The notes beneath the pieces were generated by a model that saw only the letters and a list, made by a program, of their open reading frames with translations, was not told the origin of the DNA and searched no databases. From the NCBI GenBank assembly GCA_964035545.1, contig OZ037771.1:5388628-5452627 (forward strand): 64,000 bases of DNA, written 5' to 3'. This stretch comes from Bugula neritina (lineage: Eukaryota; Bryozoa; Gymnolaemata; Cheilostomatida; Bugulidae). The translations under genes were made by a program, and so were the position numbers. Below are positions 13,999 to 61,098 of the stretch, piece by piece. Every line of letters begins with the position of its first letter. Within the stretch, counting starts at the first letter, position 1.

Positions 13999-13999
13999 T

Positions 14000-34178: not shown

Positions 34179-37100
34179 CTATGTCGAGCACTCTCGCGTG
34201 CTGAAGTACAGATAGTTAGCAGCAATAATTAAATCATCTTCATCATATAAATCGGTGACATCATTTAATTCACAGGTTCTTGATATCTCGTGGTAGTTCA
34301 CAGAGTAGCAACGAGCTTCTTTTACACACATGGTAACACAACTCCTTGATGACAAAGCTGTCACCGTAGAGATTACGTGATTTGTCAGCCGCTTGTTTGA
34401 TGCTTTGCAGAATATTTGTTGCTGCTTACCGTTATCAAAAGTCTTAGAGAGCTCCAGGTGTGACTCTACAATAACAAAGTTATCAGTAAAACCAACACAG
34501 CAAAAACCCAAGATACTGGTAGCATGCCATTTTGTTTTCTTTGCTCATTTTATTCTGAAAAAATCCTCTCACTTTCAGTTAATCCTTAAAAACTTTTTAC
34601 AATGATGTGGAGCGACTTATGAAAGGTTAAAACAAATTCAATAAGAATTTTTTCACATAGCAAACTTTCGAAACTTGGTTCCATGCATGTTAAAAAAATT
34701 AATTAGAATTTAAAATGACACAAAAAATAATTTAAGACAAACAATTGTTACTTCAGGTTTTGCAAACCATATTGGGCTGAAAGCAATTTTAAGTCACTGT
34801 TCATGGTACATGAAGCATGTAAAACTGCAGACTTAAGGTAAAATTCTGAATACCACATACCACATAGATAGCTACTTTTGTAAACAGTGAGTATACATAC
34901 AACTTGAGAACACTGAGTAAAACCTGTGAACATTAAGCACAACTTGTGAACACTGAGCACAACTTGAGAACACTGAGCACAACTTGAAAGTACTGAGGAC
35001 AACTTGAAAGTACTGAGGACAACTTGTGAACACTGAGTGATATAAAGCTGAGAACAGGACCTTCACAAGGAAAGTTCTCATAATGAAATGTTGCATCTCC
35101 CATTACACTGAGAGTGTTCCAGTTGATATATAATATTTCCTTCATCACGACAGTCAAGGTTCAGGACTTGGTCAGCAGACATTTCTCTATCCCAGAGATT
35201 TATCCATGATAGTTTACCAGTCAGCATTTGCGAAATATCTAGACCTCCAACTAAAATGAGAAGCAGGGGGTGGGTGTATGAGCATTCATCAATTAGAAAA
35301 ATTATTTATGCTGCATCCAGGATTTAACATACTGATTGCTACATCAAAATGCTGCATTTGAGTTGCTACATTTAAGTTGTCATACATGAATATCAAGTTT
35401 GGCGCGTAATAATATAGTCAAACTGCTGCACAGAGTAAACCTACCCATGAAGTTTAGTTGTACACAAGTACACATACTCAAATTACAACATTCACCATTT
35501 TTGATTCACAATACTAATCTTCATCCTTCAACGTTATTGATTGACTCAAAATAATAATTATAATCATTCAATGTGATTGGTTGACTCACGACACCGATCT
35601 CTCTATCATTCATTATGATTGGCTGATTCGCAATACTAATCTTTATCACGCAACATGATTGGCTGATTTGCAATACTAATCTTCAACACACAGCGTGATT
35701 GGCTGACTCACGATACTGATCTTGATCATTCAACATGATCAAAGCTCCCCCTCTCACGAACTCTGAGCCAGCTGTATCTGATGTTCTGTACAGTTGAAGT
35801 TTACCAGACTCCTCAACGTCTGTGTACCACTGTATATAGTTGCAAATAATTTAACTTCAAAAATAGCAACAGTAGTAACTAAATTTGCCAAGTCTTAAGA
35901 TTTATAAAAATACGTAACTGCTACCTATAAAATACAGCATATATGAAAGCATGTATTAATAATTTGTTAATGCTTTCAGGAATCCATGACATGAATTTTC
36001 ATATATACTTTGAGGCATTACTAGGTTACAATTTACTATAATATATACATGTATAACTTGGTTACAGATAGATCACTATACATACAGCTATAGAGCATTA
36101 TAAATACAAATATATTGTTGCACATATAAAATATATCTAATACAATACATACAGACATATTATTACACATTATAAAGGTAATATACAACTATAGGTACAT
36201 ACTGTTTTAATATTAATTATTCATGCAATTATAATATTCTTATGCAATATACAGTTATATTTTATTATACTTACAGATATGTTAATATATACTCACATAT
36301 ATTTATACCCTGATATAATATACTCAAGTGTTACACCTACAGCATGCAGCTAAATTATAACCACATCACTCACCGCCAGGCTGTCATTAGCCCGCCACGT
36401 AAAGCAATGCTTATTCCATCCTTTCAACAAGGTTGAGGCCTCTGACAGAGGAACTGCCCACAGAAAGAACTGCGCATTTCTGATGTAGATTTTAAAATTC
36501 AAATTTGGACCGGAAGAATACAAATTCAAAAGGAACTCGTTGTGAGGAGAAGCTATAAAATTCAGAAACCAAGATTATAATCACCCATTCATGTGTGAGT
36601 GTGTGTGTGTGTTATTTCGAAGATTATTGTGATGAGAAACAGTCTCTATTTTTGAGAAGCATTGCCAATAGGACCAATAAAGGTTTATACTCATGTATAC
36701 AGAAGCTCATATACCTGTATATATACAGTGAGGGCCCTGAAGCGTGCACAGAACAAGTCCCATATTTAATATTTAATGGAGAAATTGAGAAAAGCTTTGT
36801 GTTTCAAATTAAAAATGCAGCATAGGAAGTTATGTTCTTTTGATAATTTCAACCCGCACCCCAAACAAAAATTTAATAATAAAATTAAAGAAATTAGGCT
36901 GTCTCAATTTTTCCACTATTGTTCCTAAGTGAAAGCCAGGAGTAAAAATATTTATTCAAATATATTTTAACATATGATCATGTATAACTAGCGTTCTCTT
37001 GGCAGGTATACATGCATTTTCACTGCAAGATAAAAATATTCACTTGAAATTCTGATTCTACTGTCTTGCAGTTGCTGCTATTGAAACATTTACATGCAGT

Positions 37101-40100
37101 CATTAGTCTTGATTTGAAGAAGCATAATATTTTTATTGCTAACTATTGAAGTGTCAACTGTCTTGCTTATCTTTCATTGTAAATAATTAGCATGTTGCAT
37201 GTGACCATTAGAATAAAACATTAATTTTATTGGAACTGTAACTGAAACTGTAGCAGACTTAAAAAAAAATATCTCACAATATTTTAACATGTAATTAAAT
37301 CTGAAATTTTTGTTCATAAGATTATAATGTTACCACATATTTTGAGCCAGCTATTATATGGCATATACTTGGGTGCTCATACTATATTTTAATGACAGCT
37401 TGTCTACTAGAAAATATAATTTTTGCTATTGTTTTCTAAGCCATGAGGTCTCTATGGCTATGCATGCAACTAACATTTACTCATGTCATTATCTTCTTAG
37501 CCGTATTTGCCTTAATTAAAATCAATATATACATAACTTTAAATATCTGCCTTCCCAAACTTTTTTAGATAAATCATTTGTTAACTACAAAAAATATCGA
37601 CTTTTGCCATGACAGCTTATTTTAACCTGTTTGGTTAATGTGATTCGAGACAATTGTAGGATTGGAATCACGGTAGACCTGCTATATCTATTATAGGGCA
37701 CATTAGTTTAAATTTCCAGCTACATGTAGGTTCAGATTTTAACATTGTGTTTGTTTTCCATACACACAACTATATTGCTATTGTATGGCTTTCTCTGAAA
37801 TATTATATGCAAACATACAGATCAGTAAAATCATGTGCATAAAGTATTACAGTATTGATTTATTATTATATATAGCAAAATATTGCTACATATTATACAG
37901 AGTAACAGAGAAACTGCTGGCAACTTATATGAGAAATATACTTAAGTTAGGTCTCAGCTCATAAATGCACAAAATAGAATTAGCCACAAGGTTCTAGAAT
38001 TCTAAAACTTCTGCCTCCTTCCAGGATTTGAACCACAGACCTCTAACTTGCAGGCCAATTACATTATGGGATTGCTGGGGAATCACAACTCTACGCAATA
38101 ATCTCAACAAAAAGAAAACTGAAATTTAAGAACTGGAAAAGGTGGCGTGTATTATAACAATAATTGAACAACGGTGATGCAGCTATATAACAAGAGAACA
38201 CAACTAATAATTTAATTAAGTAACAAAATGTACTAAAAAGTGTAAACACATATTGTCACTACACCTTTGGTAGTTTGATATTTTTGCAATGAGTTTTTAA
38301 ACTGGGTATATGAATGCTTCAGTGAGCTTAAAGCAAAGTTGGTGACACTCTAAAATATATAATAACAGTATTATGCTAATTTATTAACCAAACAAACTGT
38401 AATATTGAACTGCTTAAAATATATTAATTAAAAGCATTGGCAGAGGCTATCATAATTTAGTCAGATTATTCATTTAGTAATTATGCTATGTGCATGCATG
38501 TTTGCTACAAACTCTATTGAGCAACAAATATACATGAAATATATTAATTATTAGTTATTAAGCATACCGGGAAACGCATAAAAGTAAGTAAAGATTGCAT
38601 AAAAATAGTAGATAGTCACTAAATTTATTTAGCAAAGATCAATTTTGAGAATCACCCAAGCCTTAAAACTTGGATAATAAGCTTGCACAGTTGAGCAAAT
38701 TTCTCATCAAATTGATATTCAGTACCTCATGTTGTATAAATGTGTTGTAAACATCATGACATATATTACCTATCAATAATTTAAAAGTTCAATACTTTAA
38801 ATTATGACGTGCTAGCTGATATTGATTTTATGTCAGATTGTATTCAGAGCTAATTCCTATGCAAAAATATTCTGCTTGAAGCTCTATATTCACTGTTTTA
38901 TTAAAATTAATTGCTCTAAAAAACTTAAAATTTTTCTGGTATTTCTTGGCAAGCTTTACTGCCGTAATCAAATTTTATCCAATTATTCACACTACAATAA
39001 ACCTGCTATTTATGAATACATCTTTTGCTTCAGCTAATTCCATTTTGCTCTCTGTTAATATTTTATAGCATATTTTATTAGCTAGATGTTATCACAATTA
39101 TGCTATATATATTATTTAAAATTTTGAACAAAAAATATATATTGAAATGTGTAGGTTGTTAGCTTCTTATTTTCCCATATACACCAGCTGAGAGCAGATA
39201 GTAAACATGTTTTTAAAAAATGGCTTTCATTGTTAATTTGTAGCCTGTGAAATTATTGCTTGGTAATTATTATGAAGCTTTTGCTGCTCGGGGCCCCAAA
39301 ATCTAAGCCAATACTGACCTGGAAACTTAAGCTTTGCAATATAGAAACAGAACAATATACGTTATATAGTCTCTATTAAATGACATCGCTACTCAAAGCT
39401 GGGGGATAGCACACTACCCAACTTCACTGCTAATATTGCTGATATGTATCTAATAATCTGCTCTCTTAACCATTTAGGATCAATAGCTGAAAAATTGAGA
39501 TAGCCTATGTTCTTTAAATTTCATTATAAATTTTGGTTTGGGGCACGGATTGAAATTCTTGCGAGAACATAACTTCTTTTGCTACATTTTTAATCTAGAA
39601 CACAGGCTTGTCTTAATTTCTTAGTTACTGCACCTGCCACCTCCTAACAAGGAAGTTTTTGCCATAGCCTACAAGAGTTTGTGCTTTGCAGTTATAGCTT
39701 CATTCTTACGACAGCTTACAGTAGCAACGCTGGGTTTTGATGTAAAAAGTTATAATAGCTTCTATAGTTGTTATTTAAAAAAAACTTTGCCCCCACTGAG
39801 ATTCGAACTTGAGACCTCCGGCTTGCAAGCAATTATGTGCATCATTACACCACTAGGACCACTGGGTGATCACAACACTACATGTTACATACACATAATG
39901 GCTGGCAATATTCCGTGACTGCGAAAACACACAACTTACATGATAAAGGTGTGGAAAAGCTGAACAAATGAAGATCTCCAGATGCAAAATAGCCAGCAGA
40001 AAACCAGAAACAGAAAGTAAGCTCTGGAAGATCTGGTAGACTCTCCTGGTACAGGTAGGTGCTGATGGTGTGCTGTTGATGGTATACAGGCAGCCGTAGA

Positions 40101-40933: not shown

Positions 40934-41109
40934 GTCTCTGCAGACCAGTGCTTCACAACTGAAATAATATGAACTTCACAATACAATTTAAATTACACTG
41001 ATCCATAATCTGCCACAGCTTTACTGGATAATCATCATAGAAGAATTGATTTCACAGAAATTCTGTTTACAAGGTCAAAAGGGAGAGAACTCCCAGTTGG
41101 TCATTATAC

Positions 41110-41335
41110 TAGTGTATATCTACACTCCCGCAAGTTTATAGTCACCATCCCTGTGAGAAAACCTCTGATGGAAGGGGTTTTTTTTTGTTAAATCAGGCTA
41201 AGGACTTATTCAGAGGAGGCACAGGAGCAATTATGACTGGATGCTCTCCCTAACATCACCAATAGCCTTTGCCGGCTCAAACCCTTAACTTCAAGTTTAC
41301 TAGGCAAACACTCTAACTTCTAGACTACGGACACC
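41110..41335 (-). mobile_element. SINE family 1, copy 1
   Basis: Reverse complement of the element at 42,402-42,605. It has a tRNA-like head (TCCGTAGTCTAGAAGTTAGA, B box GGGTTTGAGCC), a body with GAGAGCATCCAGTCATAATT and CTGAATAAGTCCTTAGCC, and a TTTAACAAAAAAAA A-run. Confidence 0.88.
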
Positions 41336-41439
41336 CCTTATCCTGTGCAAGTATACTTATAATATTGTAAACTGTTGTTATGATCATATCATGAAGCAGA
41401 GAACTGCCAAGAGCACCAGACTCCAGGAGGAAAATAATT

Positions 41440-41500
41440 AGCCAGACATTGAAAAAGGTGCGCTTACTACTGAGCTAACCGGAGTAGCTCTAAAGTGCAT
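41440..41500 (-). mobile_element. Isolated tRNA-like A-box segment
   Basis: The - strand has GGTTAGCTCAGTAGTAAGCG, a good A box and D-arm, but no B box at the right spacing. It is probably a tRNA pseudogene or the head of a third SINE. Confidence 0.35.
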
Positions 41501-41726
41501 GGAACTCTATTTACATGGTTGATCTACATAACACTGATAAACTGTGTTACTTGCAAAGATCACTAGGTGCATGCAGGAAATCAATGATTATTATAATATA
41601 TTTAATTATATTAGGTGCTTGATGATGTTTATATATTATGTTTTATTTTGTTTCTATGATGCAGTAGGTTGTGTAAACTGAATAGGAAAAGTAACAAATT
41701 CACAAGGGAAATGATGTTTGCAGAAC

Positions 41727-41732
41727 TTTATT
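41727..41732 (-). terminator. Poly(A) signal AATAAA of the NME gene
   Basis: An AATAAA lies about 165 bases past the stop codon on the coding strand, a sensible 3' UTR length. Confidence 0.6.
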
Positions 41733-41895
41733 CACAATTTACTTATACAATTGGTAAAATCATCTTCGTGGTACCATTCAGCAATAAAACCTTCATAATC
41801 TAGAAAAAGTGTGAGAGTAAAGAGTTGAGGAGATTGCAGTAGTTGGTGTATGACTAGTCCGTCTCAAAACACATCAACATAGTTTGGTGCTGAGT

Positions 41896-43865
41896 CTATT
41901 CATAAACCCAGGCTTCTGAACAGCTTGTCCACTGCACCAGTTCTTCAGGCTTGAACCAAAGAGCTACTTCTTTAGCTCCACTCTCGGGGGAGTCACTACC
42001 GTGACAGACATTCCTGCAGGTACACAGCAGCATGTATATGTATAACCGAATAGTGTGCACTAAAATAAAGCTGGCTGTTAAGTGTCATATTTAGTGAAAT
42101 GTATACTCTTAACGTCCCACCATTACACAGATTACATAACAGTAAACTCTGTACCTTCCGATATCAATGCAGAAGTCCCCTCGTACAGTTCCCATGGCTG
42201 AATCTTGAGGATGAGTAGCTCCTAGAATGAGGCGTCCATACTTTGCAGCCTGGCTACCTTCCCATGCCTGCCAACAGAGGAAGTGTGTGGTTCAGCTTAC
42301 AAACGATTGGTTGAATTGTTAAGTATAACTTAGTACAACTAGCACTAAAAGACAGAAATGTAGCATATGTTATACTACACCATGTTGCACTAAACTAGGG
42401 AGTAGCCGTGGTCTAGGGGTTAGAGTGGTTGCCTCGTAAACACGAAGTCATGGGTTCAAACCCCAACAGATACCATTGGTGGTGTCAGGAAGAGCATCTA
42501 GTCATAATTGCTCCTGTGCCCCATCTGAATAAGTCCTTAGCCCAATTTAACAAAAAATCTTTCAATCATAGTTTCTCACAGAAAGGGCAACTATAAAAGT
42601 TTTATTATGTTGCACTAGAATATTATATTTCCTGTATTGCATCATGCAGTGCTGTATTACATTGTGTTATACTGTATTGTGTTACATTACCATAATATAC
42701 TAAAAGAACTTACCATGGCACAGACTGGCCCACTGGCCATATACTTCACAAGTCCTGGGAAAAATGATTTGCTTGAGAGATCAGCGTAATGTACTCGTAG
42801 ATGTTCTTCAGTTGGCTGAACAAAACAAACACAACATATAGACAGTTAGAAATCTAAAGAGAGTTGAATTCCAGTTTTGAGAACTCATAGGGTTGGTTTG
42901 GTTTCAAATCACACCAAAATTATGGGCAGTTCACCATTAGCAGATTATATTTCTAAGCTAAGAGAGGTAAGGTGATCTTGTAACCATGTAAGAAAATAAA
43001 GCTACTAGTAGTTAGGTATTCACTTAGGCTCAATATAACATAGTCTTAAAGTATACTGCTTTGTCTATGAATCAAAAATTATCTTCAATAGCTAGAGCAT
43101 GGACAATGACATATTTATTTTTTTAAACTTGGCCTTAGTTTTCATGTTAGAAATATAAATATTTAAAGTGACACCAACAGCAGCAATAGCTGATTGATCG
43201 CAATAAATAGGAATGGGCCATTGATTTAAAATGCTTCCAAGTTAGTTTCACTAAAAGTAAGTCTAATATGGATATTCTCTTGAGATCTTACCCTTCAAAA
43301 TTTAAACATATTGATATATTTTTAATAAGCTAGATAGCCATAAAATTACTGTGAGTTCGTTAATTAGATATTCATAATCATATCATTATCAATATCATAA
43401 TGACTACGATAATCATAAATATTAAAAATATATCTAGCGAGTTAATCAGCTATACTTATAGTTATTATCAACTTCACAATGACAAATAACAATTACACTT
43501 ACACCGATATATAAATATTTATATTAACATTTAATTTAAATTATAACTTACAAACTTAAGCTTGAACTTCCAACTTCAACTTGAAGAAAATTCGAAATAC
43601 TAATGACTCAATATAAATACTGTAAGTGTAAGTGTAACACCAACAGTAACACTGACAGTGACTGTAAGTTTTAATTTAACTTCAAGCCTACCTGCATAAA
43701 TTTCATTGCTACCAACTTAAGTCCTTTTTTCTCAAATCTAGAGATGATCTCCCCAATCAGTCCTCTTTGAACACCATCAGGCTTTACCATAATAAACGTT
43801 CTTTCGCGTGTCTGAGCCATTGCAGGTGAAAATGAAGAAAATATTGCAAGGAATGCGAGCACCAT
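41896..43865 (-). CDS. NME: Nucleoside diphosphate kinase, group I, with hydrophobic N-terminal extension
   Basis: NDPK transfers the terminal phosphate from ATP to NDPs through a phospho-histidine. Exons are 43,692-43,865, 42,714-42,815, 42,155-42,267 and 41,896-42,013, totalling 507 bases (168 aa). Visible are [60 protein letters not shown] and the active-site His in NVCHGSDS. The C-terminus WVYE is of the NME1/2 type. The usual cytosolic start would be MAQTRERTF at 43,822. An earlier in-frame ATG at 43,865 adds [15 protein letters not shown], which resembles a signal or membrane-targeting segment. Both starts may be used. All splice sites are GT-AG and phases fit. Intron 2 contains a SINE. 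Confidence 0.95.
42402..42605 (+). mobile_element. SINE family 1, copy 2 (reference copy)
   Basis: The tRNA head (GTAGCCGTGGTCTAGGGGTT, GGGTTCAAACCCC) is followed by a body with GTGGTGTCAGGAAGAGCATC, AATTGCTCCTGTGCC, TGAATAAGTCCTTAGCCC and an A-rich run. A conserved tail follows (GGGCAACTATAAA). The motif GTCAGGAAGRGCATC is, as I recall, common in SINE bodies of several animal groups. The copy lies in NME intron 2. Confidence 0.9.
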
Positions 43866-44872: not shown

Positions 44873-44878
44873 TTTATT
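44873..44878 (-). terminator. Poly(A) signal AATAAA of the MITD1 gene
   Basis: An AATAAA lies about 145 bases past the stop codon on the coding strand. Confidence 0.6.
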
Positions 44879-45022
44879 ATACAATATATAAAAAATTGAA
44901 TTTCATGTCTAAAAGAGATTGTCACATATCAACGTTTTCAATTACCTAAACTATTTACAATCGTTTTTAAAAAACCTATTCAGTATTGCGGATATTCCGG
45001 AATCACAACAGAACTAAAATAA

Positions 45023-48000
45023 TCATGGAGGTGATTTGTAGAAGACATCTACAGTAGTCTGCCGGCATGGCCTTAGATCATAGTTGAACGCACCAATGGC
45101 CAACTTTCCAGGGGAGGGTTTGAAGTAGTCCAACCCTCGTCCAATCTTTATTGTCCAGTTATTACTTAATCTACAATGAGTACAAAACATGTACATAAGT
45201 ATAATATCTAAACTCAGAGTAGAAAAATTTGTACGCTGAATATACTTGGTGTTCAGGGAAGTACTTCTTTGCCGAGAATGATACCTTTCATATCAAATAT
45301 TTACTGACATGCTTAATTTCATATAGATCAAGATATTTAAAGACTAACAATGTTATGCATTTCCTGCTTTTTACATTTGTTTACATTTAGTTACTAACTT
45401 ATCTTTCAACAGTGAATGCGGAAGGAGCAAGTAGGGAAAAATCAAGAAAATTATTTTTTATCTTTGCATTATTTGGGAAAAATTAATATGGAAAATCTAA
45501 TTAAGGCAACCTCATGAGAATGATGAGTCATAATAATCATTCCTATAAATCCATTTAGTTTTGCCTTCAATGAACTAATATAAAATGATATATTCATAAT
45601 GATATGATGGAGAAAACTTGAGTATCAGAGCATAAAAACTTCAACTGAGAAACTTTGAAAACTTTTAGTTCAGCAAATTGCATGAGCCAACCAGTATTTC
45701 AGTGTTAGACTGCATTGCGAGTGTCACGGGCTAAGCATTAGACTAAGTAACACACCGAATCTCCCGATCATGTAGACTGCTGGAGAACTCTGTGTGGAGT
45801 GTGACATGGTGAGTGGCTAAACTGCTGCCAATTTCTGCCAGCTTCGTCTGCTGTTGCTGATGATCAGTTGTGTCAGCACTGGTTCTCAGCTTGATCTCTC
45901 TGAGCCCACATTGAGATTTCACCAGCAACTCAGCAAGCTTCAGGAAATTTACAATCTACAATAGATATACACCTGGTCTATAGTATATTATATACCTGGT
46001 GTGTAGTATATTATATACCTGCAGTGTAGGATATATACCTGTAGCTAGTGTAGGATGTATACATGTAGTGTAGGATATATACCTGTAGTGTAGGATATAT
46101 ACCTGATGATGAGAACGTACGTAAGGATCATCTATCTCCACTCTCTCACACTTTTCTAGCAGAAACCTGCTTACTAGTGACTCATAAGAGAAACCAGTAG
46201 AATTTTCTTCTATAAAAATCTGCTCATGATACCTCCCAGCTGAAAGAGCAAAAAAACAGCAACTAATCATCTTGAAGTTATATTTTAATAGTTAAATCAT
46301 TAGAATTGACACCATATAAAAATTTTCATAAACTGTGTTATTGTATAACTGTATTACTGTATAATTACTGTATTACTATATTACTGTGTTACTGTATTAC
46401 TGTATAACTGTATTACTGCATCATTGTGTTACTGTATAACTGTATTACTGTGTTACTATATTACTGTGTTACTGTATTACTGTATAACTGTGTTACTGTG
46501 TTACTGTATTACTGTGTTACTGTATTACTGTGTTACTGTATTACTGTGTTACTGTATAACTGTATTACTGTGTTACTGTATTACTGTATTACTGTGTTAC
46601 TGTATAATTACTGTGTTACTGTATTACTGTGTTACTGTGTTACTGTATTACTGTGTTACTGTACAGATGAAAAAGTAGTTTAAGTGTCATGGTTTATTCA
46701 ATATTTTGTTGCCAAGATTGTATAATTTAGTTGTAAAATATTTCAAAAAGAATGAAGCTGTATATTGAATATAGTGAATTTCATTCAATCATCTGGTTTT
46801 TAATAATTATTACACATGTATGATCGATATGGTATGATATCTGGAAAAGGCTTTTGAAGAACTCCTCAGCAGGTTAATAAAATAAAACTTTGATAAATTA
46901 ATTTTATACTTTTTTGGTCTTCATAAATTTTACATTTCACAGGCCATTGTCATAGAAGCTATAAAGACTGAGTAAACAATAATTGTTAGTAGGTACCTTC
47001 GGTATTAGATAATTTCATTAAAACCTGTTCAAGATAATGCAGAAATTGGAAATAAATCATATAATTTGCATCATAAAACATACTTGAAATCAACTTAATA
47101 TAAACTTACGCAAGTTTATAGTCACTATCCCTGTGAAAAGAGTTTTGGGGTTTTGTTAAATTGGGCTAAGGACTTATTCAGATGAGGCACAGAAGCAATT
47201 ATGACTGGATGCTCTTTCTGACATCACCAATGGCCTTTACTGGGCATCGAACTAATGACTTTGGGTTTACTAAGCAAGTGCTTTAACCCCTAGACAATGG
47301 CTGCTTCTATTTAAATCAACTCAATATATATCCAACAATTATGAAGAACTAAAGGTCTCCATCAAAATAATATGAACATCAAGTTTAAAATCTTACTTGT
47401 CTTTTCCTTATCTATGTGACTTTTGATCCACTCAGCTCTATCCATGTACTCCACCATTTTGTTTCTTAGTGCTGCCTTCCCAGCTTCACTCCGTCCTGTG
47501 GCTACAACGACACTCCAGTTACATGCTACTGTGTAACAAGTTTATTATGTTTTAGAGTTGTGTTCCCATGAAATTGTATTCTAAAAATCCTAATATAAAT
47601 CTTATTGTAACTGTAAGTATTCAAATCTAGGATTCTTATGCAATGTGAAAAATCTTTCACTTTTCCAAATAATTTCAGCCACCTCTAAATAGTGTGACTG
47701 ACAGTTTATCACGGATAAATTATACCTAAAGACTTTCTGAAATTTAAACAATTTTTTTCTGTAACATTTAGAGCTATGAAAAAAATGTATCACTCTGCTT
47801 GTAAATGATTGGGCTTGTACATTTTTTGACATTTAAATCATCAAATTTACGACTAGCTTTTAGCTATTTTAGAAAATATACAATTCAAACAGGGCATGTA
47901 TATGAACTAGTGATGTTGGCACTAAAGTCTCCAGTCTACGAGTACCTTTACTAGCCTGCATCAATAGCTGCAAGCCTTCCTGGTAACATATTAAACTCTC

Positions 48001-48087
48001 TGTATATCGCTTGCTCCGGTCCAATTCAATGGCTCGTTTGATCAGCCCAATACCAAAAGTTTCCAGACCACCTGTGATGTCAGACAT
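45023..48087 (-). CDS. MITD1: MIT domain-containing protein 1
   Basis: MITD1 binds ESCRT-III tails through an N-terminal MIT domain and membranes through a C-terminal phospholipase D-like domain, and acts in cytokinetic abscission (family knowledge). Exons are 47,946-48,087, 47,397-47,501, 46,103-46,239, 45,756-45,955 and 45,023-45,170, summing to 732 bases (243 aa; human 249). The MIT region reads KRAIELDRSKRYTESLICYQ and EGLQLLMQASKGT, then YMDRAEWIKSHI. The C-terminal domain reads ENSTGFSYESL, VEIDDPYVRSHHQ, TEFSSSLHDREIR and NNWTIKIGRGLDYFK. Exon 2 has two in-frame acceptors 6 bases apart (47,501 or 47,495). An acceptor-like CTTGTAG sits one base before the ATG, suggesting an intron in the 5' UTR. 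Confidence 0.95.
45960..46102. repeat. 20-24-bp tandem array seeded at MITD1 exon 3 donor
   Basis: On the - strand the exon ends CATCATCAG|GTATATATCC. Units such as GTATATATCCTACACTACAG then repeat, each ending CAG and followed by GT. AG|GT boundaries fall at 46,103 (real), 46,083, 46,063 (mutated to ATG|TA), 46,039, 46,019, 45,996 and 45,973. Confidence 0.95.
46330..46675. repeat. GTTACTGTATTACT minisatellite in MITD1 intron 2
   Basis: About 340 bases of 10-bp units alternating TTACTGTATTAC and TTACTGTGTTAC. Two long + strand ORFs across it (LLYYCVTV repeats) are by-products of the array. Confidence 0.9.
47105..47312 (-). mobile_element. SINE family 1, copy 3
   Basis: Same orientation as copy 1. 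It has GTTTATAGTCACTATCCCTG at the tail end, the body (GGCTAAGGACTTATTCAGAT) and a degraded tRNA head. It lies in MITD1 intron 1. Confidence 0.88.
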
Positions 48088-48284: not shown

Positions 48285-48435
48285 AGTCTGTCATGCTGTT
48301 AGTCTGTCATGCTGTTAGTCTGTCATGCTGTTAGTCTGTCATAGTATTAGTCTATCATAGTATTAGCTTATCATAGTATTAGTCTATCATAGTATTAGTC
48401 TGTCATAGTATTATTCCATCACAGTATTAGTCTAT
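48285..48435. repeat. 16-bp minisatellite (GTCTGTCATGCTGTTA)
   Basis: About nine units, the first GTCTGTCATGCTGTTA and later GTCTRTCATAGTATTA. It lies upstream of MITD1. Confidence 0.9.
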
Positions 48436-48439
48436 CATA

Positions 48440-49219: not shown

Positions 49220-52200
49220 TCACTTATCCTTTTCTTTAGGTTTTCTCTTGTCTGTTAGCTCTGAGAGCTTTTTATTAAGTCTACGTTCCAAACCAGCTCT
49301 GGCTGATGCATTTGGCTTCTTATTTGAGGCCACACCACCTATGAAAACACCACATTGGAAGAAGCTTCTAGGTTGTGTGTAAACAGACATATCAGACTGC
49401 CTGTAGCTCAGCCATAATTTAATGTTAGGTGAAGTAGTGAATTTAATGTTAGGTGGTATTTTAATGTTACATCAAGGTATTTGTAATAATGGTAGAAACA
49501 TATAGTTAAGAAAATTTTCTATTATCTGATAAAGCCACAGATAAATTTCTATATTTTAGCGCCATTATTGAGTATTACACACACGCATGCATAAACATAC
49601 ATTTAAACAGCATATAATATTTTATTTTTAAGCAACATTACTAACCATTGAAGAGTTTTCCTTCCTTTATAAATGTAGACCTAGCTTGAGTTTTAGCTTC
49701 AGCACCACAGCCATGAACTTCAGGCATGCCATGACTCAAGCAGAACCTTGTGAAATAAAATATTTAAAGAAAGCTCAGAAAAGTTAGCACATTGCATTCA
49801 ACATCATCCTAAATATTACAGGCTGATATTATAATAATACTACCTAGAAATCACATATCCATTTTAACTTATGATGTCAGGCATTGCATCATTGAGTTGT
49901 TATCCACACTTAGTAATTAATTTAATCTAAAATTGGGACAGTTGTTTTTAGAAATTACTTCCGCCATTTATTTGCTATTTAATACTGGAAAGGTTCAAAG
50001 TTTTAAACCCTGATGAAGGCAAAATACTTTCTATATGTCTACATTTTCTGCATGCAACAATTGAAAATCCTTTTGTGCAGTCATAAATATAAAAACTTAC
50101 AATTTGCCATTTACTATAATCTCAGAAGCTTTATCAAACTGACAGAACATTATATCAGTGATAGAGAACGAATAGTGAGATATGTTGGCTAATCATGTAT
50201 GCCAGCAGATTTCTAACTATGTGGAGTGAAACTAAGAGTAAACAACTTCCTTTAGCCTGCAATACATTATAGAGAAGACAACTTCAACTTGTATTCTATT
50301 GTACAGTAGACAACTATTTTTAGCTTGTATTTTACTATATAAAATACAACTCACCTTAATTTACAGAACTGACAGTTCACTCCGAGTGTTCTAACCAAAG
50401 TCTTACATTTCTTAAAGTTACAAACAGAGTTAAGCTGGTCAGCAGCAGCGAGTAAGGCATCAAAGTCATCTCCGTCAGCGTTCTTTATTGCTTCCCCGCT
50501 GTCCACTTTCTTCCTGTGAGACAATCGTTTCTGAACAATTAGCTTGTAGTACATAAATTCTCTAACACTACTGAGCATGTATCACATTTGTGACTGAGAA
50601 ATTTCTGTTTTAAAAACCAACTAATTGGATTTTTATATAATTAAATTCAAGATAAAGAAATTAACAATTATAAGCAAAAATTATAGCTTACAACAACAAA
50701 TTACTGCATGCAATTATTTTGACAGGAAAGCAATGACTTAGCATGAATGTGAGTTTATACCTTTATCTTTTAAGCCAATAAATAAATTTTAATGAGGAAA
50801 CAATTCCACTAAGTTTCCTTGCATTATAAAAGCATCACAACACAATTCATGGAATGACACAGTTTAAGTAAACTGATATAATTTACTTTTCTTTCTTCTT
50901 TTTCGTTGGTTTGTTAGCACTGTGTGTTTTAGGTTTGCATGACTCCATGACATCCGGTGGCTTTCCATGAGCCGGAGGCACCTTGTCATGACTAACCGGT
51001 TCTGTGTGAGTAACACCTGAGGATAAAACTGGTGCACATCTCAGCTTATGTAGATGAAGGTTAGCCCGAGGAACTAACTTACCACACATATCGCAGGTAA
51101 ATTCTTCTAATGCTAGCGATTCAGTTTTAGTAGACACGCTCTGAGCTACAAAGATTATTGACTAACTGAGTCTTAGAGAATGAATATCAACCTGGTCTAT
51201 TCTAGATTAAATGTAGTTTCTAACATGTATAGTAAATGACAGAGTGGTGGTGGGAATTGAACCACACAACACCCATTTGTTAAGCAGCACAGGAAAACCC
51301 TATTCACTACACCGCCAAGCTACCATCTCCTCCGCAGAATGGAGGAAGGTCCAGTAATAGCCTTGTTCTACACTATACAGAGTTACGGTTGGGTTTCACA
51401 CAGATACTAATGCTTTAAACAAATCTGATTCTTCAACATACCTTCTGCGTTTGCCTTCTCAGCAATGTACTCCAGTTGATGTTTCTTGGTAGCTTCAGTT
51501 TTATGTGGTTTCTCTATAATAATGTGCCTTTGTGCACCTTCCCCTACACTGGTGTGTTTAAGGTTATGGTCCTCTGCAAGCTACAAAATCATGCCAATAA
51601 AAACAGCATAAAATAAATTTAATTTGTTTATACAATGTTATAATGTTATAATTCTAAAGTTGACAAATACTGGTGAACATCTCACTTAGTAAAAATCTCA
51701 CCTAGTGAAGAGCCCACTTAGTAAACAACCCACCTAGTGAAGAGCCCACCTAATGAAGAGCCCACCTAGTGAAGAGCCCACCTAGTAAACATCTCACCTA
51801 GTTAACATCCCACCTAGTAAACACCCCACCTAGTAAACAACTCGCCTAGTAAAAATCTCACCTAGTGAAGAGCCCACCTAGTAAACAACATACCTGGTGA
51901 ACTACAAGACGCTGAAAAGAATTAAGAGTGGGTGGAAAGCTGTGGCTAGTAGCAGAGCTCCTTACAAAGTCTACTATGACAGAACTAAACTCATCTCTGA
52001 TTCGCTGAGTACGTTCTTCCTGTGTCTCAGATTTCTCTATAGTGGAACTACAAGTACACATGAAACACTAAACCAACCAACACAAACATCACAAGTATTA
52101 TCAAGCCCTGTTATGGCAATATGACAAGTTAATGCTGACAATTAACGGTACATAGGAGAACCCTTTTACTGTTTATAAGAATTACCTTTGTTAAAAACAC

Positions 52201-55200
52201 AAAATTTATGAATATGCAAAAAGCAACTTACTTGTGTGCACTGAGTTAAAATATTTCAACTTTAAAATAGAGTCCTCTCTCACACGCATGTACGGAGTCA
52301 ATATATGCGAGCAAACAACTCTTGAGCTATAAGTCTGTCAGCAAGTTGCTCAACACAAATCAAGTCTGATTACCTGATAATGCCCGAGTCAACAGAACTT
52401 GGCTGACTCTGTTTTTGAGTTGACTTAGGTTTTCCTTTACTTGAATGAGACTTCTTATCAGAGGTTTTAGTCTGTGTTGTAGAGCCAGACTCTTTCATCA
52501 GCCTGGCAACTTTCTCACTCAGTGCTCCAACGTGATAGTCTAAGGAGAAGTGAACACAGCAAATATATAGTTCTTCCGTTGAATTACTGCTGGCTTTTTA
52601 TTTTCAGATATCAAATGCAACATATTTTATTGAGTAAAGCTATTCCATCAGATGTGACATAGCCATTCCTGAGACTTGACGAATAAATAAAACAGCTAGC
52701 AGTTAGTTAGCTGCACACTCAGCAGTAATTCAAGTATCAACAGCCTTGGGTGATTCAATGTCAATGATTTAACAAGCACTTTTACAAGTTTTTTAAGATT
52801 TATAAGAATACTTGTTTTACAAAAAAAACAAAGATACTGTATAATAATTAGTCTCTGAATCTACCACACCAGCATGGGCAAGGCAGTTCATGAAAAATAA
52901 TCTAAAAGTCAAGTCAAATTGTGTAAACTATATCACAACATATATACAATTATGTGACATATACAGATATTAGCCATTGCTATTCGTGTAGTAAAACTTT
53001 CATGCAGACGTATGTTGTAACTCACCCTGCTGGTATTCAGCAGCTGTCTTCACAACTCCATGAGCTGACATATAGTTGATGAGTCTGGAGAGGAAGGGGT
53101 GTCTGCTGACAGTGTCTGAGTCACACACGACAGCAACTTGTCTTCGTGCTCTGGTAACAGCTACATTCAGCCTTCTGTCCTCAGCGAGGAAGCCAACAAC
53201 ACCTATACAGTACACAAGCACACCTATACAGTACACAAGCACACCTATACAGTACACAAACACACCTATACAGTACACAAGCACACCTATACAGTACACA
53301 AGCACACCTATACAGTACACAAACACACCTATACAGTACACAAACACACCGAAAAAAATACTAACAACTTAGACATTAAATGGGTGTTTTACAAGACTGG
53401 AGATGCAGTGGTGAGCAGCTATGACCGATCAATGCACGAGTTCATAAGTTTCTAGGTTACACGCCCGCACACACTACACATAACGTATCTAGCATGTGTA
53501 ATATATGTCACATATAATATATCATGCAGAAAAGTCAATACAACTGACAAAGACTGCTCGCAATTACATAAACACAAACTAATGATAGTACAGATCCCTA
53601 CTAAGTCAATTACTTACAAGTGGAGACAACACACTGAAACTAACCTTTATTATTCGATCGGACAAGGGAGATAACAACAGCTTCTTTTTCCCGACCTTGA
53701 TACCCATCTACAGACTTGATCTCTAAGTCTTTGTATTTATCTGATAGTCTGTTTCGAATCAGTTCTACCTGCAGGAGAGTTACCCAGACTATACCAAGTT
53801 AACTACAGTGATGCACTCAGACTACGCTATCCTAATTGACAGTTGACTATTTGCTAACTCATGACTGTAACAGAATCTATCTCTTCAACCAACTTAACAT
53901 AACTGCAAAAGCTCCTTAACTAATGTAAACAAATTCTCTGCTTACTTAACCCCTTTCACTAACTAATAGTATGACTACCACTACTACCATAGTCACTTTC
54001 ACTAATTAATACTATAACTACTAATACTATAACTACTAATACTATAACTACTAATACTATAACTACTAATACTATAACTACTACTACTACCACAGTTACT
54101 TTAACTAATACTATAACTACTACTACTACTACCACAGTCACTTTAACTAATACTATAACTACTAACTAATACTGTAACCATCACTACTACTACCACAGCC
54201 ACTCTCACTGATTAATACTATAATGACTAACTATTACGATAGACTATTCACCACAGTCACCATCATCAACTATTACTATAACTACTACTACTACCACGGT
54301 CACTCATAAACTAAGTTTAAGTACTATTACTACTACCATACTGGTGGCCAGCTGTTACTATAACTACTACTATAAACCATTACTACATACTACACAGGTC
54401 ATAGTTACCTGAAAGTTATATGGAGATATAACTGCAATATCAGCTGCATTCACTCCGGATTGGATGAGAGACTGGACATGGAGAGCAACCAGATCAGCTT
54501 CACCTGCAGTACAACACATCTCAGTCTATACTCATTATTAGGGAAAGGATTGTGAAGGAAAACAGTGATATTTCATTAAAGCAAATAAGCATATCTGCTA
54601 GTAACTAAAAATCATTTCTAGCAATTACCCTTTGGTTCATAGAAATATAATAACTGAATACTATATTTATTTATGGCATGACACTGCAACCGGTCATTAT
54701 TCTTCACTATATCTACTCAAACACAGCTAAAGGGATAATTGGGTTGAGCTCCAGTTGCATATATACCGGAAGTTAGCCGAACAGATCACATTTACATAAA
54801 TTTGCTGAAGCACTGCTTTACACAGACAGAGTGATGTTCAATATATTTCATTTCAAATATCAGCTGCAGACAACAGCTGCAGACAAAAACTGCAGACAAA
54901 AACTGCAGAGAGCAGCTATAGACGAAAGCTGTGGATGACAGTTGCAGGCAGCTGCAGACGAAAGCTGCAGAAGACAGTTGCAGATAACAGCTGCAGATGA
55001 CAGCTGCAGATAACAGTTGCAGATAACAGCTGCAGATGACAGTTGCAAATAACAGCTGCAGATAACAGCTGCAGATAACAGCTGCAGATGACACTTGCAG
55101 ACACACACCTTCATTGCCTTTACTCTGCTCATCAGGCAACTCCAGTTCGGGCAGGTCACAGCCAGCCGTGTCTATCAATATCAGTGGCTCACATGTGACT

Positions 55201-58200
55201 TCATTGTCTTCAACCCCCTGCGCCATGTACAAACAGACTATTATACACCACTGTTAGCAGTGCAAAGCTGAACCTTAACCAATCTTCCTCAATAAATTTG
55301 TATAAAACAAAACAGCAACATTACAAAATCATATATATTTCAATGAAAGCCGTTATATTTTTAAAGTATAAACCGAAACTCCACTGAATTCATACAGAAG
55401 TACTAAAAAGAGAATATTGTACTTTCTGTGTAACCAATTGCATTAGTCTAGTATTAGAAAGAGTGTCATAAATGTTCAGAGCTTATGCAAGCATATTTCC
55501 AACATAAGCTGTAATATAGAGCAGTGTTGAAGATCAGAAGAAAACGCACATTCAAGCAACTGGGTTCGGAAAAAAGCCTATTGCACTTAGCCCGAGTAAA
55601 TTCACTTTCACATAACTAGGGAAATACCAGCACGTAACTTCACGTGATATAATTGAAGATGAAAACGTCAATTAGAGTCACATAACATAACTCACAGTGA
55701 TGTCTCGGAGTAGATGCGTGCTAACAGTGGAGCTGGCAGTTAGTTTGCTGTTGTAGAGCTCATCTGAAGCCCACTGCATGATCTGACTGTTCATTCTGTA
55801 CTGTACAGTGAGCATGTGCACATGGGAGCTGTGCGAGTCTATCAACCTCTCCATTAGAGTAACAGACAGACCTTCCGCAGCTGCTCTGTAAAGTGGCAGC
55901 ATATTAGATAGACATGTACAGTCAGCGGTGGCCAGTACAATAATATCACAGTGTATAGTATTACTTTGTATAGTACCACAGTGTATAGTATTACTTTGTA
56001 TAGTACCAGAGTATCTAGTATCACTGTGTATAGTACCACAGTAAATAGTACACACAAAAGATATAAGATAGTTTACTCGATATATAACAGTGAGACATGC
56101 TGCAGACGTATAACAGGTGAATAACCTGTTACAACCTGTCAGTGATGTCATTCTCCATGACTCAAGTAAACTGCTACCATGATGTCAACTTGTCTGACTA
56201 CACAGACAAAGCGGTGGAAATCTGCCGCTACAGAAGTGTTATATTATGATAATCTGATATAAAACTAGTAAGTTCAAAGAGCTGGTAAAAGTAAAAAAGG
56301 CATTATTGTATGCATATTACTAACTTGTGAGATAGAATGGTAGGGGGCAGTTGCAGATGGTCCCCCGCTAAGACACATTTGGGTGCTTGAGGCAAGGCTA
56401 TCCAACACGAAATCTCCAGAGCCTGCAACACAATAACACCAACACATACAATAGACATCATCTCAAAAACACTCTTTAGCAGAGCACATCATAAAAAGGC
56501 ATAAAATTTAATAAGTTACCGAAACATGAACAACCTTGACATTTTGAAGGTAGGAATCCTGAAAGCAAATTGCACACTAAAGCCTATTTTGATAACCATG
56601 TGTTTTATGTCTTCAGACAGTTAGCCCGGCACGGGCACCATGTAGTATAACAGACAGACAATACAGTATGAGTAGCAGACGTCAAGTTACCTGAGAACAC
56701 TCGTCTATAACCACGACGTCGAAGTGACCTTCACCAAGTAGCCTAAGTGGTCCGTCATTTGAGGCTGAGGTCAAGGTAGACAGAATGACCTCTGACCCTT
56801 TGAGAACTTGCTTCATGGCTTCTTCACTTCGAGTTTTCAGCTCTTTTCTGAGAGATTTCAGTTCCTGTCGCACTGATTGGCTGACTGAGGTGCCTCTACT
56901 TTGTCGCATCTTTTTCTGCAAACAGCAAGTTTATTAGCAGTCAGTCATACTCTATACTCTATTGTCTATACCAGACTGCTCTATACCAGACTGCTCTATA
57001 CTGTAATACTCTATACTATACTACTCTATACTGTACTACTCTATACTGTACTACTCTATACTGTACTACTCTATACTGTATTACTCTATAGTCTATACTA
57101 TACTACTCTATACTGTACTACTCTATACTATACTATTCTATACTATACTACTCTATACTGTATTACTCTATACTGTACTACTCTATACTGTACTACTCCA
57201 TACTGTATTACTCTATAGTCTATACTATACTACTCTATACTGTACTACTCCATACTATACTACTCTATACTGTACTACTCTATACTGTACTACTCTATAC
57301 TGTACTACTCCATACTGTATTACTCTATAGTCTATACTATACTACTCTATACTATACTACTCTATACTATACTATTCTATACTATACTACTCTATACTGT
57401 ACTACTCTATACTGTACTACTCTATACTGTATTACTCTATAGTCTATACTATACTACTCTATACTGTACTACTCTATACTGTACTACTCTATACTGTATT
57501 ACTCTATAGTCTATACTGTACTACTCTATACTATACTATTCTATACTATACTACTCTATACTATACTACTCTATACTGTACTACTCTATACTGTACTACT
57601 CCATACTATACTACTCTATACTATACTATTCTATACTATACTACTCCATACTATACTACTCTATACTGTACTACTCTATACTATACTACTCTATACTATA
57701 CTACTCTATACTATACTACTCTATAGTGTACTACTCTATACCGTAATACTATAAATGGTACTACTCTATACTATACTACTCTATACATACTAGTGTAGAG
57801 TCGATATCGGAGCGGATATCCTCAACTATGCTGCTGTCCTCACATGTGGCCAGTTTTGCGTCTAGACAGTAACAATGAATCTCATTGGTCGCTCTGGCTG
57901 GATGGCCGAGTCTAGTGACAACTACCTGGTGAGTAAAAAGGAACGGTTGGCCATTGATATTCAGTCAGTAACCAGCTTGTAGTGACACTACACCATGTTG
58001 TCTGGAAATCTCTCTAAAACAACTTGAATCTAAATACCTCGATTATCAGTAATAATTTGTCAACTAACAATTTTATCACAAACTTTTGAGCACAACAGAA
58101 TTTTTAAACTAATTTCATAGCAATATCATTATCATTACATGATACATGAATTATTCTATCAAAAAACGTCATATGTATGCTATACATTGTCTAATTGTTT

Positions 58201-61098
58201 CTTGTATAAGAATATATAGCCATAATCCTATAAAGTAATCACAAACACATGAGTTTCTACATAGAATAGTGCAGTGGTCTAGTGTTGGTAGAGTCAACCC
58301 TTTTTCGCTACCATCAGCCTAGCACTGTTACTGTTTGGCGAAAAGTTAACTGGTGGACGCAGCATGATATATGTTCAATTAACTTCATCTATGCACATTA
58401 TGTACGCTCTATAGTCTATACAGTATACAAGAACAATTATACGCATACTACCTGTACTTTAGCTAACAATACCTTTGCTTTGGCTAGCCTAAGCACCAGA
58501 TTGTCAATAGCAACATTGCTAGGGGCGCACGCCAACACCTTCGAGCCTTGAGCAACAAACTGTCTGATGGTTTCCACCAGAGTGGTGGATTTACCAGTAC
58601 CAGGTGGTCCGTGTATGATGGAGAGACGGGGCTGAGAGAGAGCCAGTCTTACAGCTGCCTGTTGAGACTCGTCTAACTGGCTGTTGAAATACGTCAGCTT
58701 ATCTGTATAACAAATGGTAACAGTGGAGGTATTCAGTCAGAAGGACCTTTAGAATATACAACACATTGAATTACAAGCGTGTTAAAAACCCAGCATACTA
58801 TATCTCACTGGTCTTACTTACATCTTATCTACATTACATTAGCCAGCTGGGTCTATTTGTCATATACCAATATTATACAAACTATGTACTTATATCTATA
58901 TATGAAAAAGACTCGATGATTATTATACAATTTTCCAACATATCATAATATAAAATAGTATCCCTATCATAGGGCAATAAACCATAGTATATACAATACA
59001 TGTTTACAAGGTGTAACTATTCATACATTTTTGAAGCTGTAACACTCAACGCATTTTAAACAACACATAAGTAAACCGCCAACATTAAACATAGAAGTGA
59101 GAGTGAGAGATTATAATTAACCAAATACCCAGATTCGAATTAACGAGTGGCACCTCATCCGAATGCGCCTGGAACGTCAGTTCAATTAATCTACCAGATC
59201 TCGTGTTTCGATCAGAGCCTAGTTTACTAACAGCCCTGCAACAAAGTATGCAGAAAAGCTAGATTTTAACAAGTGCATTAGAATAATCTAAACAATAGAG
59301 CCACACGATTTGTAAGTACCTATCCATGAGTCAGATTGATAAACTTATGAAATACTATTGCTCAATAAATGTCATTACTCAATAAATGCCATTACTTAAT
59401 AATTGTCATTATTCAATATATATGTCATTACTCAATGAAATCCATTACTAAATAAATGTCATTATTCAGTATATGTCATTACTCAGTAAAAGCCATTACT
59501 TAATACATGTCATTATTCAATATATATGTCATTACTCAATAAAAGCCATTACTTAATAAATGTCATTATTCAATATATATGTCATTACTCAATAAAAGCC
59601 ATTACTTAATAAATGTCGTTATTCAATATATGTCATTACTCAATAAAAGCCATTACTTAATAAATGACATTATTTAATATATATGCCATTACTCAACAAA
59701 TGCCATTACTTAATAAATGTCATTACTCAATAAATGTCATTATTCAATATAAATGTCATTACTCAATATATGTCATTACTCAATAAAAGCCATTACTTAA
59801 TAAATGGTATTATTTAATATATATGCCATTACTCAACAAATGCCATTACTTAATAAATGTCATTACTCAATAAATGTCATTACTCAATAAATGTCATTAT
59901 TCAATATAAATGTCATTACTCAATAAAAGCCATTACTTAATAAATTATACTGCTCAAAATATGCCATTACTAATAAGAGCACTCAAACAAGCCAGCTATC
60001 AGGTATTAGTGCAATGTGTTGGTCATACCTTCTGAGCACTTTATATGTCACATCATTGGCTAGCCGTACCAGGTAATATCTGCTATCATCACCCAGGGTA
60101 GACAACTCTTCTCCTTGGTCAAATGCAACAGCTATGGTGGCTGATGTCACTTTGAGGACAATGCCAGAGCCAATAGAAGTTGGGCTACTGACCTCATGTA
60201 GCCCAACTATGTCCCCTGGAAGGCAGAAGAAAATAGTCTACACTTAAAAGATTACCTATTATCTCAAATTCATACAAAGAGAATGTATGAGTGAAAATTT
60301 TTGAAGAATTTAAAAGAACAGACGCAAACAAAAAGCTCAACTACAGAATATGATTTGTGCTAAATGAAGACTCAATAAAGTAAAACTCCTTCTAACCAGT
60401 TTGGTGCAACAGTAGAAGAACAAGGTAGAGAAACCAATACTTGGTTACTTTGTATTATAAAATCATAAAAATTGCAAACACTTGCAAGCAAAATGACTGA
60501 TGATATACTAGTAGCTTATTTAGCCAGTAGGTACTAACCTGATAATATACTAGTAATTAATCTGGCTAGTAGGTACTCACCTGATGTGCTAGCAGTTTAT
60601 CTAGCTAATAGGTACTAACCTGATGATATACTAGTAGTTTATCTAGCTAGTAGGTACTAACCTGATAATATACTAATAGTTTATCTAGCTAGTAGGTACT
60701 AACCTGATAATATACTAGTAGTTTATCTGGCTAGTAGGTACTAACCTGATGATATATTAGTCGCAGGCAACTCAGGCCGATTCACATTGCTGGACTTGAA
60801 GGTGACCACTTGCCTGCCATACAAACTAGTCTTTCTACTATCTATTAATAGCTTATACAAGCATATGCCTCTCTTCTCCAACAACTTGGGAGATACATTT
60901 CGCTGGAAAAACCTAGAAAAAATATCAGCAAACAATGAAATTAAAACATTAATTTATTTAAAATATTGAAGTAACTTATAATTTGTGTACTATATTTTAA
61001 TAAGTGTGTAAAAACCTGGATTCTTGTAGCTCAGATTCCTTCTCTAACTGCAATAGTTGCTCAGTTTTCCGACAAAAAAGATCAACTGGAGAAGACAT
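49220..61098 (-). CDS. IGHMBP2: IGHMBP2 / SMUBP-2 UPF1-like helicase
   Basis: IGHMBP2 is an SF1B RNA/DNA helicase linked to ribosomes and tRNA. Twenty coding exons: 61,016-61,098; 60,746-60,912; 60,029-60,215; 59,129-59,235; 58,473-58,702; 57,791-57,925; 56,691-56,915; 56,325-56,422; 55,696-55,885; 55,109-55,217; 54,409-54,503; 53,645-53,768; 53,026-53,202; 52,374-52,539; 51,894-52,047; 51,442-51,580; 50,887-51,145; 50,355-50,513; 49,646-49,746; 49,220-49,338. They sum to 3,024 bases, exactly 1,007 codons plus stop, and all phases fit. Walker A is GPPGTGKST (about residue 213). Further motifs are [36 protein letters not shown] and NVAVTRAR. R3H follows ([15 protein letters not shown]). Exon 17 adds a C2HC finger, [20 protein letters not shown]. 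The AN1 finger spans exons 18-19 ([26 protein letters not shown]). The gene looks intact. Confidence 0.97.
51241..51335 (-). mobile_element. tRNA-derived SINE head, family 3
   Basis: CTTGGCGGTGTAGTGAATAG (A box) and GTGGTTCAATTCCCACC (B box) lie at tRNA spacing in IGHMBP2 intron 16. It differs from families 1 and 2. No body could be delimited. Confidence 0.5.
51670..51893. repeat. 16-bp array, 14 exact periods, seeded at IGHMBP2 exon 15 donor
   Basis: On the - strand the exon ends GTTCACCAG|GTATG, then GTGGGCTCTTCACTAG-type units follow, each ending TAG or TAA and followed by GTGGG or GTGAG. The far end of the array again reads GTTCACCAG, exactly 224 bases (14 x 16) from the exon end, with no indels in between. 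Confidence 0.97.
53204..53350. repeat. 21-bp array, seven units, seeded at IGHMBP2 exon 13 acceptor
   Basis: On the - strand seven units GTGTGYTTGTGTACTGTATAG lead up to the real acceptor TGTATAG|GTGTTGTTGG. Every unit ends in AG and starts GTGTG, matching the exon start GTGTT. Unit length is a multiple of three and the frame is open through all seven. Confidence 0.97.
53950..54200. repeat. ACTATAACTACTAAT minisatellite in IGHMBP2 intron 11
   Basis: 15-bp units and CTACTA-type derivatives, with looser copies out to about 54,380. It does not touch a splice junction clearly. Confidence 0.9.
54845..55095. repeat. 13-bp CAGCTGCAGATAA minisatellite after IGHMBP2 exon 10
   Basis: Units of GCAGATAACAGCT start about 15 bases after the donor GAAG|GTGTGTG. 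They do not copy the AG|GT. Every - strand frame is open across much of the array, so intron retention would add a Cys/Leu-rich tail rather than stop at once. Confidence 0.92.
55935..56055. repeat. GTGTATAGTATTACTTTGTA minisatellite in IGHMBP2 intron 8
   Basis: About seven 16-bp half-units, alternating CAGTGTATAGTA and TTTGTATAGTA, 50 bases upstream of exon 9. Confidence 0.85.
56945..57790. repeat. 15-bp CTCTATACTGTACTA array filling IGHMBP2 intron 6
   Basis: More than 50 units fill almost the whole intron, from the exon 6 donor to about 30 bases short of the exon 7 acceptor. The donor itself (CACTA|GTATGTATAGAGTAG on the - strand) reads as a variant of the unit GAGTAGTATAGTATA, so this array may also have grown from its splice site. 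A + strand ORF over it ([10 protein letters not shown]) is a by-product. Confidence 0.93.
59340..59965. repeat. 17-bp CATTACTCAATAAATGT minisatellite in IGHMBP2 intron 3
   Basis: About 35 imperfect units (CATTACTTAATAAATGT, CATTATTCAATATATGT) with higher-order pairs and triplets. It lies in mid-intron, not at a splice site. Confidence 0.93.
60497..60745. repeat. 42-bp array, six units, seeded at IGHMBP2 exon 2 donor
   Basis: On the - strand the exon ends TAATATATCATCAG|GTTAGTACC. The unit ends TAGTATATTATCAG|GTTAGTACC, so about 18 coding bases plus the donor are within the repeat. AG|GT junctions fall at 60,746 (real), 60,704, 60,662, 60,620, 60,581 (GTGAGT) and 60,539. The last unit at 60,497 has lost its GT. 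Confidence 0.97.

Follow-up and report, generated by a model that had tools for sequence, protein, structure and literature searches.

The window analysed here, a stretch of 64,000 nucleotides, comes from Bugula neritina, a bryozoan, and lies on its chromosome 7 (C7:5388628-5452627). On its minus strand the window carries genes for a pentraxin-like protein, a nucleoside diphosphate kinase (NDK), MITD1 and IGHMBP2. The exon coordinates of these models were partly set by hand, and the exons of IGHMBP2 (20), MITD1 (5) and NDK (4) splice into open frames. The genes and the pentraxin-like exon of main interest are as follows.

49222..61098, minus strand: IGHMBP2 (SMUBP2) homologue with 20 exons; in-frame model, PDB 4b3g at E=3e-207
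45028..48087, minus strand: MITD1 homologue with 5 exons; in-frame model, PDB 2ymb at E=3e-74
41908..43820, minus strand: nucleoside diphosphate kinase with 4 exons, the comparison gene; PF00334 at E=5e-54
35712..35829, minus strand: pentraxin-like exon ending in ..GGALIMLNDQDQY|, the likely source of a repeat unit; PF00354 at E=1.7e-6

The following pentraxin-like exon begins at 35250 and its end is not fixed; a further exon at 36374-36535 is uncertain and was used solely to count its intron. The pentraxin fragment matches neuronal pentraxin-2 at E=3e-6. Searches for RNA genes gave no Rfam match at 34-62 kb of the window and, by ARAGORN with the bacterial code, no tRNA in the whole window. 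At 12319-17825 and 25194-26705 the minus strand has extended open frames similar to retroelement pol (reverse transcriptase and integrase by eye). Furthermore, a SINE-like element, dispersed and about 200 bp long, with what we take by eye to be tRNA-promoter-like boxes, lies at 42396-42600 (plus strand), 41135-41330 (minus) and 47151-47305 (minus), and also in sampled blocks of C1 and C4; beyond the query there are two copies in the window, six pieces in C1 and two in C4, at 73-83% identity.

Three of the genes harbor tandem arrays at splice junctions, four across 5' splice sites and one across a 3' splice site, and two further arrays abut a donor. The following rows are based on TRF and the reading frame.

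35501..35739, minus strand: pentraxin-like gene, 40-bp units over the donor of exon 35712-35829, reaching 28 bp into the exon
45966..46105, minus strand: MITD1 intron of 147 nt, nearly all of it 20-23-bp units from donor 46102/46103, with 3 bp of exon
51676..51901, minus strand: IGHMBP2 intron, 16-bp units across donor 51893/51894, with 8 bp of exon
53199..53350, minus strand: IGHMBP2 intron, 21-bp units across acceptor 53202/53203, with 4 bp of exon
60497..60761, minus strand: IGHMBP2 intron, 42-bp units across donor 60745/60746, with 16 bp of exon
56975..57786, minus strand: IGHMBP2, 15-bp array starting 4 nt inside donor 57790/57791, abutting without spanning it
54857..55101, minus strand: IGHMBP2, 13-bp array starting 7 nt inside donor 55108/55109, abutting without spanning it

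Altogether, 11 intronic arrays were counted, five spanning a junction, two abutting a donor and four away from junctions. All are in introns flanked by exons that connect in frame, and TRF gave no row inside the NDK gene (41908..43820). The pentraxin array is split by TRF into two rows, 35501-35588 and 35615-35739. The pentraxin donor was placed at 35711/35712, with GTGAGT at 35711, because LIMLNDQDQY then joins LGGLDISQ in frame; the gene finder had picked another site. Exon 10 of IGHMBP2 sits in an open frame (54795-55253, minus strand) that continues across the adjoining 13-bp array.

A sequence-only reading of this DNA had described four donor arrays and one acceptor array in three genes, and TRF, the in-frame models and homology agree with it. 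Its unit sizes of 42, 16 and 21 bp stand, its 20-24 bp becomes 20-23 bp, and the pentraxin unit is 40 bp rather than 41 bp. It had let the array edge coincide with AG|GT, but the arrays enter the exon by 28, 16, 8, 4 and 3 bp. In the MITD1 donor array (3 bp) and the 21-bp acceptor array (4 bp) this overlap barely exceeds the splice consensus. Both kinds of boundary are affected in the window, with four donors and one acceptor, the latter by an overlap of 4 bp only.

One rival explanation for such positions is uniform birth, i.e. duplications arise anywhere in introns, exons purge the rest, and donors are not preferred. On this account, the expected share of junction-spanning arrays in the window genes is already about 10%. 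For the window set of 28 introns (13,641 nt, or 10,602 nt with arrays collapsed), five of 11 arrays are junction-spanning, where uniform birth along introns predicts 1.2 (P ~0.003). Adding a twelfth array (36068-36114) changes this to P=0.005, and requiring at least 8 bp of exon leaves 3 of 12 against 0.9 expected (P=0.05). Counted per junction, arrays occur at 5 of 56 (4/28 donors, 1/28 acceptors), where points taken within the same introns predict 1.0-1.5 (P 0.004-0.017). These window statistics are post hoc, because the window was picked for showing arrays.

Three blocks with a total of 250 kb, set by round coordinates before inspection, served as an independent sample; their exons are predicted, not curated. 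Here, one of 61 predicted junctions lies in a tandem match against 0.16-0.24 expected (P 0.15-0.21, not significant), and this sample, the sole junction count not selected for arrays, is too small to tell. Of 58 block arrays with a period of at least 9, one overlaps a predicted exon end, one lies inside an exon and three more are within 60 nt. Both block results speak for uniform birth. The exons came from our own gene finder, which was trained on few exons, including retroelement open frames, and missed many. On the pentraxin loci retrieved by domain search it gave nine junctions, two of them flagged, both in a false exon inside the array of locus L006, and missed the real donor of locus L001, which was identified by hand; this count was rejected. 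A first control had shown no significant excess (window 5/56 vs 67/1200, P=0.21; blocks 1/61 vs 2/1800, P=0.10) and was replaced because it was mis-built, with random copy direction and long TRF periods.

Genome-wide pattern and sequence searches covered the 215.8-Mb assembly of 295 contigs. As to the composition of the assembly, mitochondrial COX1 has, in our own reading, AGA and AGG at usual serine positions. COX1 matches outside the mitochondrial contig occur on C17, without TGA, and split on C65 and C196, which suggests bacterial or other organelle contigs within the assembly; C6 carries a full-length COX1 match resembling the mitochondrial one. Dynein AAA_6 domains on C35, C113, C149 and C176 are single frames with many in-frame TAA/TAG, and these look like contigs from an organism that reads TAA/TAG as residues, e.g. 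a ciliate.

The annotation-free donor pattern AGGTRAGTN{8,38}AGGTRAGT, with the reversed motif as control, speaks against uniform birth. Tandem strong donors number 2682+1992 = 4,674 against 84+75 = 159 for the reversed motif, although single motifs in a 314-kb sample number 24 against 9. The donor motif is thus tandem about 11 times more often per single, with small single counts; since pairs are counted, long arrays weigh more and the donor figure is inflated. For the acceptor-type motif TTTGCAGR, 44+63 = 107 tandem matches were found against 3 reversed, and its 40 singles in the 314-kb sample make it commoner than AGGTRAGT. The matched motif AGTGRAGT and its reverse have 25 and 26 singles there. 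The two patterns can be contrasted only roughly, because either motif represents a small share of sites (1/57 donors and 1/60 acceptors among curated and predicted sites). The tally of donors to acceptors is 4:1 in the window, 2:0 in the other cases and 4,674 vs 107 by pattern. The 100 donor matches listed group into 19 loci within the initial 2.7 Mb of C1 and scale by matches to about 890 loci, from a region with some 37 matches per Mb where the mean is near 22. On the genome-wide check proposed by the sequence-only reading, the pattern count points in the direction of its claim; the junction sample (1/61) is too small to tell.

All 19 array loci from the start of C1, a consecutive set, were read by eye over about 450 bp each. 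In 12 of them an exon-like open frame ends at the 5' end of the array, i.e. at the first donor (L036, L039, L041, L043, L044, L045, L046, L048, L049, L050, L051 with GG|GTAAGT as first donor, and L054 with just 60 nt visible upstream). L042 is an uncertain case, L037 consists almost wholly of array, and L038, L040 and L047 show no exon-like frame ending at the array by eye. In L053 and L052 the exon-like frame stops short of the array, at a single isolated donor that precedes it by 138 and 308 nt, respectively. Among single AGGTRAGT sites outside arrays, 2-3 of 23 end an exon-like frame by eye, and this difference likewise argues against uniform birth. When upstream coding was scored, with the donor positions of L051, L052 and L053 set by hand, array loci and singles differed significantly by rank (P=0.005) and not at fixed thresholds (P 0.23-0.24; 4/19 vs 2/23 has P=0.24).

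Six of the 12 exon calls have homology at E<=3.3e-6, a seventh is a weak Ig match (E=9e-4) below the cut-off, and five are based on the open frame alone. The homologues are kynureninase, caspase, a monocarboxylate transporter, the IP3 receptor twice, about 7 kb apart, and half-pint/PUF60 (E=1e-22, a fragment under the family cut-off). With Pfam alone, ten peptides gave matches for caspase and Ig only; the L039, L041 and L045 peptides had no match in Pfam or NCBIfam and the L046 peptide none in PDB, L043 was too short for a search, and L054 was outside the homology search. By eye, the copies in L044 and L050 repeat some 21 bp of conserved coding sequence. Taking the blocks, the pattern and these loci together, we regard uniform birth alone as doubtful.

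Two further cases were found at named genes. In a dynein light intermediate chain gene of the 250-kb blocks, a 30-bp duplication lies across a donor, with two 100% identical copies, 21 bp of exon, and an exon part that encodes a conserved stretch. Joining the first donor to the exon at 15550 of its block gives a gap-free junction alignment to solved homologues, and the duplication looks like a mirage at birth, mirage minisatellites being arrays with exon and intron in the unit. Among eight pentraxin loci retrieved by domain search, L001 has a 45-bp unit present six times, with copies 96% alike, that runs across the donor following ..LLAADTAISG|; with splicing at this first donor, the Pentaxin domain match is continuous (E=1e-20). 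Units holding both exon and intron were found in three window arrays (8-28 bp of exon), in dynein (21 bp) and in L001 (about 15 bp, by eye). The clustered pentraxin paralogues L002, L004, L005 and L007 (C3:29.77-29.81 Mb) share a 10-bp CAGGTGCTTG array with 2.8, 5.3, 6.3 and 3.8 copies, respectively. No link of this array to a junction was found, and its variation in copy number is a possible clock for array growth.

A second explanation is that donor arrays are selected, the extra donors recruiting U1 snRNP, buffering against mutation or making isoforms. Copy-donor strength, scored with our own 9-position matrix, is compatible with this, as copies are often at full strength. In the 42-bp array the five GT-bearing copies score 7.39-8.45 against 7.39 for the real donor; the corresponding values are 1.9-5.3 against 7.84 in the 16-bp array (GT-bearing copies), 1.6-5.9 against 5.9 in MITD1 and -3.6 to 3.1 against 4.0 in pentraxin. 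The sequence-only reading had every unit lay down another donor or acceptor, which goes too far: GT is present at the donor position in 5/6 (42-bp), 12/13 (16-bp) and 6/6 (MITD1) copies and in just 2/5 pentraxin copies, which speaks against selection, and AG is kept in 6/7 copies of the 21-bp acceptor array.

Use of a copy would give an immediate stop at all five offsets tested in the 42-bp array, a frameshift or stop at 4/4 offsets in the 16-bp and 2/2 in the pentraxin array, and a frameshift at 3/4 in MITD1, where +84 is open. The 30-bp dynein copy (+30) is in frame and open, and the three 21-bp steps tested in the acceptor array add in-frame residues without a stop; these two cases favor selection. 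As most tested copies lead to stops or frameshifts, the donor copies look tolerated rather than used. Splice-site columns are kept about like the rest of the unit in four arrays (0.86/0.85, 1.00/0.95, 0.96/1.00 and 1.00/0.99; four copies used for the 42-bp set), so that this comparison, with little data, gives no clear sign of selection on the copies' splice sites and speaks against selection for extra donors. Periods also have no bias to multiples of 3, which occur in 4 of 12 hand-read junction periods of the consecutive set. Selection of donor arrays is in our judgment unlikely.

A mobile or introner-like family that inserts at splice junctions and carries its own donor is very improbable: the 21-bp array has 93 weaker genome matches, most at about 70-80% identity, but the 42-bp and 40-bp arrays, two of the three searched, match only themselves genome-wide, the unit contains host coding sequence, and a comparison of nine arrays with the window, the blocks and the pentraxin loci gave matches elsewhere for the 15-bp array only (eight matches, the five listed all in a simple 8-bp array at 46.3-46.7 kb). 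The claim that a process rather than a single mobile element is at work looks correct on this evidence.

We consider it probable that the arrays are mirage minisatellites, produced by ordinary tandem duplication and tolerated at donors, with what seems to be an additional excess at donors. A short tandem duplication, of 16-45 bp in the junction cases, would first arise over an exon/intron boundary, with slippage or end-joining repair as the probable mechanism; the end state is what is observed. A duplication spanning a donor would place the copy downstream, while the first donor stays with the exon and, judging from frames and homology, would still be used. Since the first donor stays attached to the exon, the copy would become intron and be tolerated even where its use would cause a frameshift or a stop. 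Both the use of the outer donor and the neutrality of the copies are deduced from genomic sequence. Copy number would then rise from two to twelve or beyond and the copies would drift apart, a course reflected in the stages observed; array identity spans 100% down to about 80%. Where the exon part encodes conserved residues, as in pentraxin, dynein, kynureninase and the IP3 receptor, the unit probably derives from the exon, as the sequence-only reading had proposed for pentraxin.

Scanning for AG from the branch point would make acceptor duplications costly. A duplication at an acceptor would insert a new AG between the branch point and the true AG, and scanning would meet the new AG first; such a duplication should hence survive mainly if harmless, which would produce a donor bias. 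The single acceptor array, in frame and stop-free, fits this view, and one case proves nothing. The donor excess seems to go beyond tolerance, with a higher duplication rate at donors and better retention there as the two candidate causes.

Overall, the arrays are apparently widespread in Bugula neritina and donor-biased. A more tentative reading, which we hold to be possible though somewhat short of probable, is that 5' splice sites throughout the genome attract tandem duplications or retain them preferentially. Splicing or transcription would then mark the births of minisatellites and introns would grow from the donor end, with, by extrapolation, several hundred to about 900 loci carrying exact strong-donor arrays. 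If the pattern is genome-wide with donor bias, the lengthening of introns becomes testable in one small chromosome-level genome, as do the choice by the spliceosome of the first among many near-identical donors and the contribution of arrays to intron gain. Bugula offers many natural replicates for this, ranging from newborn duplications with two copies to arrays that are old and decayed.

The sequence-only reading knew of no such habit in an animal genome, yet the mirage minisatellites of amphioxus, reported from a handful of genes, have the same structure (PMC3087553, PMC3902484). According to these sources, they occur in Adh3, the globin genes BflGb6 and BflGb9, and TnC, with similar repeats in PGBD5; units are 10-72 bp long in Adh3 and 150-160 bp in the globin genes. 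They lie at 5' or 3' boundaries, many units carry AG/GT, and splicing is reported to be undisturbed. The defining paper, as given by the citing papers, is that of Canestro et al. 2002. No report of such arrays in a bryozoan was found in a literature search with subscription papers mostly outside its scope.

The arrays also recall the AGGT model, in which tandem duplication of an AGGT-holding segment makes a new intron inside an exon (PMC4974935). The link drawn by the sequence-only reading to this model of intron origin is only partial: the duplicated AGGT segment is common to both, and the Bugula arrays lengthen existing introns. Human segmental duplicates contain internal ~30-bp minisatellites, a part of them located at exon-intron boundaries, that may yield novel introns (PMC2812944). 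The paralogues concerned are recent ones of primates, with about half of the repeats in coding sequence, and the pattern is not a donor-centred genome-wide one; a further comparison paper is PMC2809761. The amphioxus mirages are tandem duplications spanning exon-intron boundaries at 5' or 3' ends, as in Bugula. The kind of array is therefore already known, and what seems new is the phylum and the scale: the Bugula arrays, known from genomic sequence alone, occur in Bryozoa, a protostome group, at many loci by pattern count and with an apparent donor bias.
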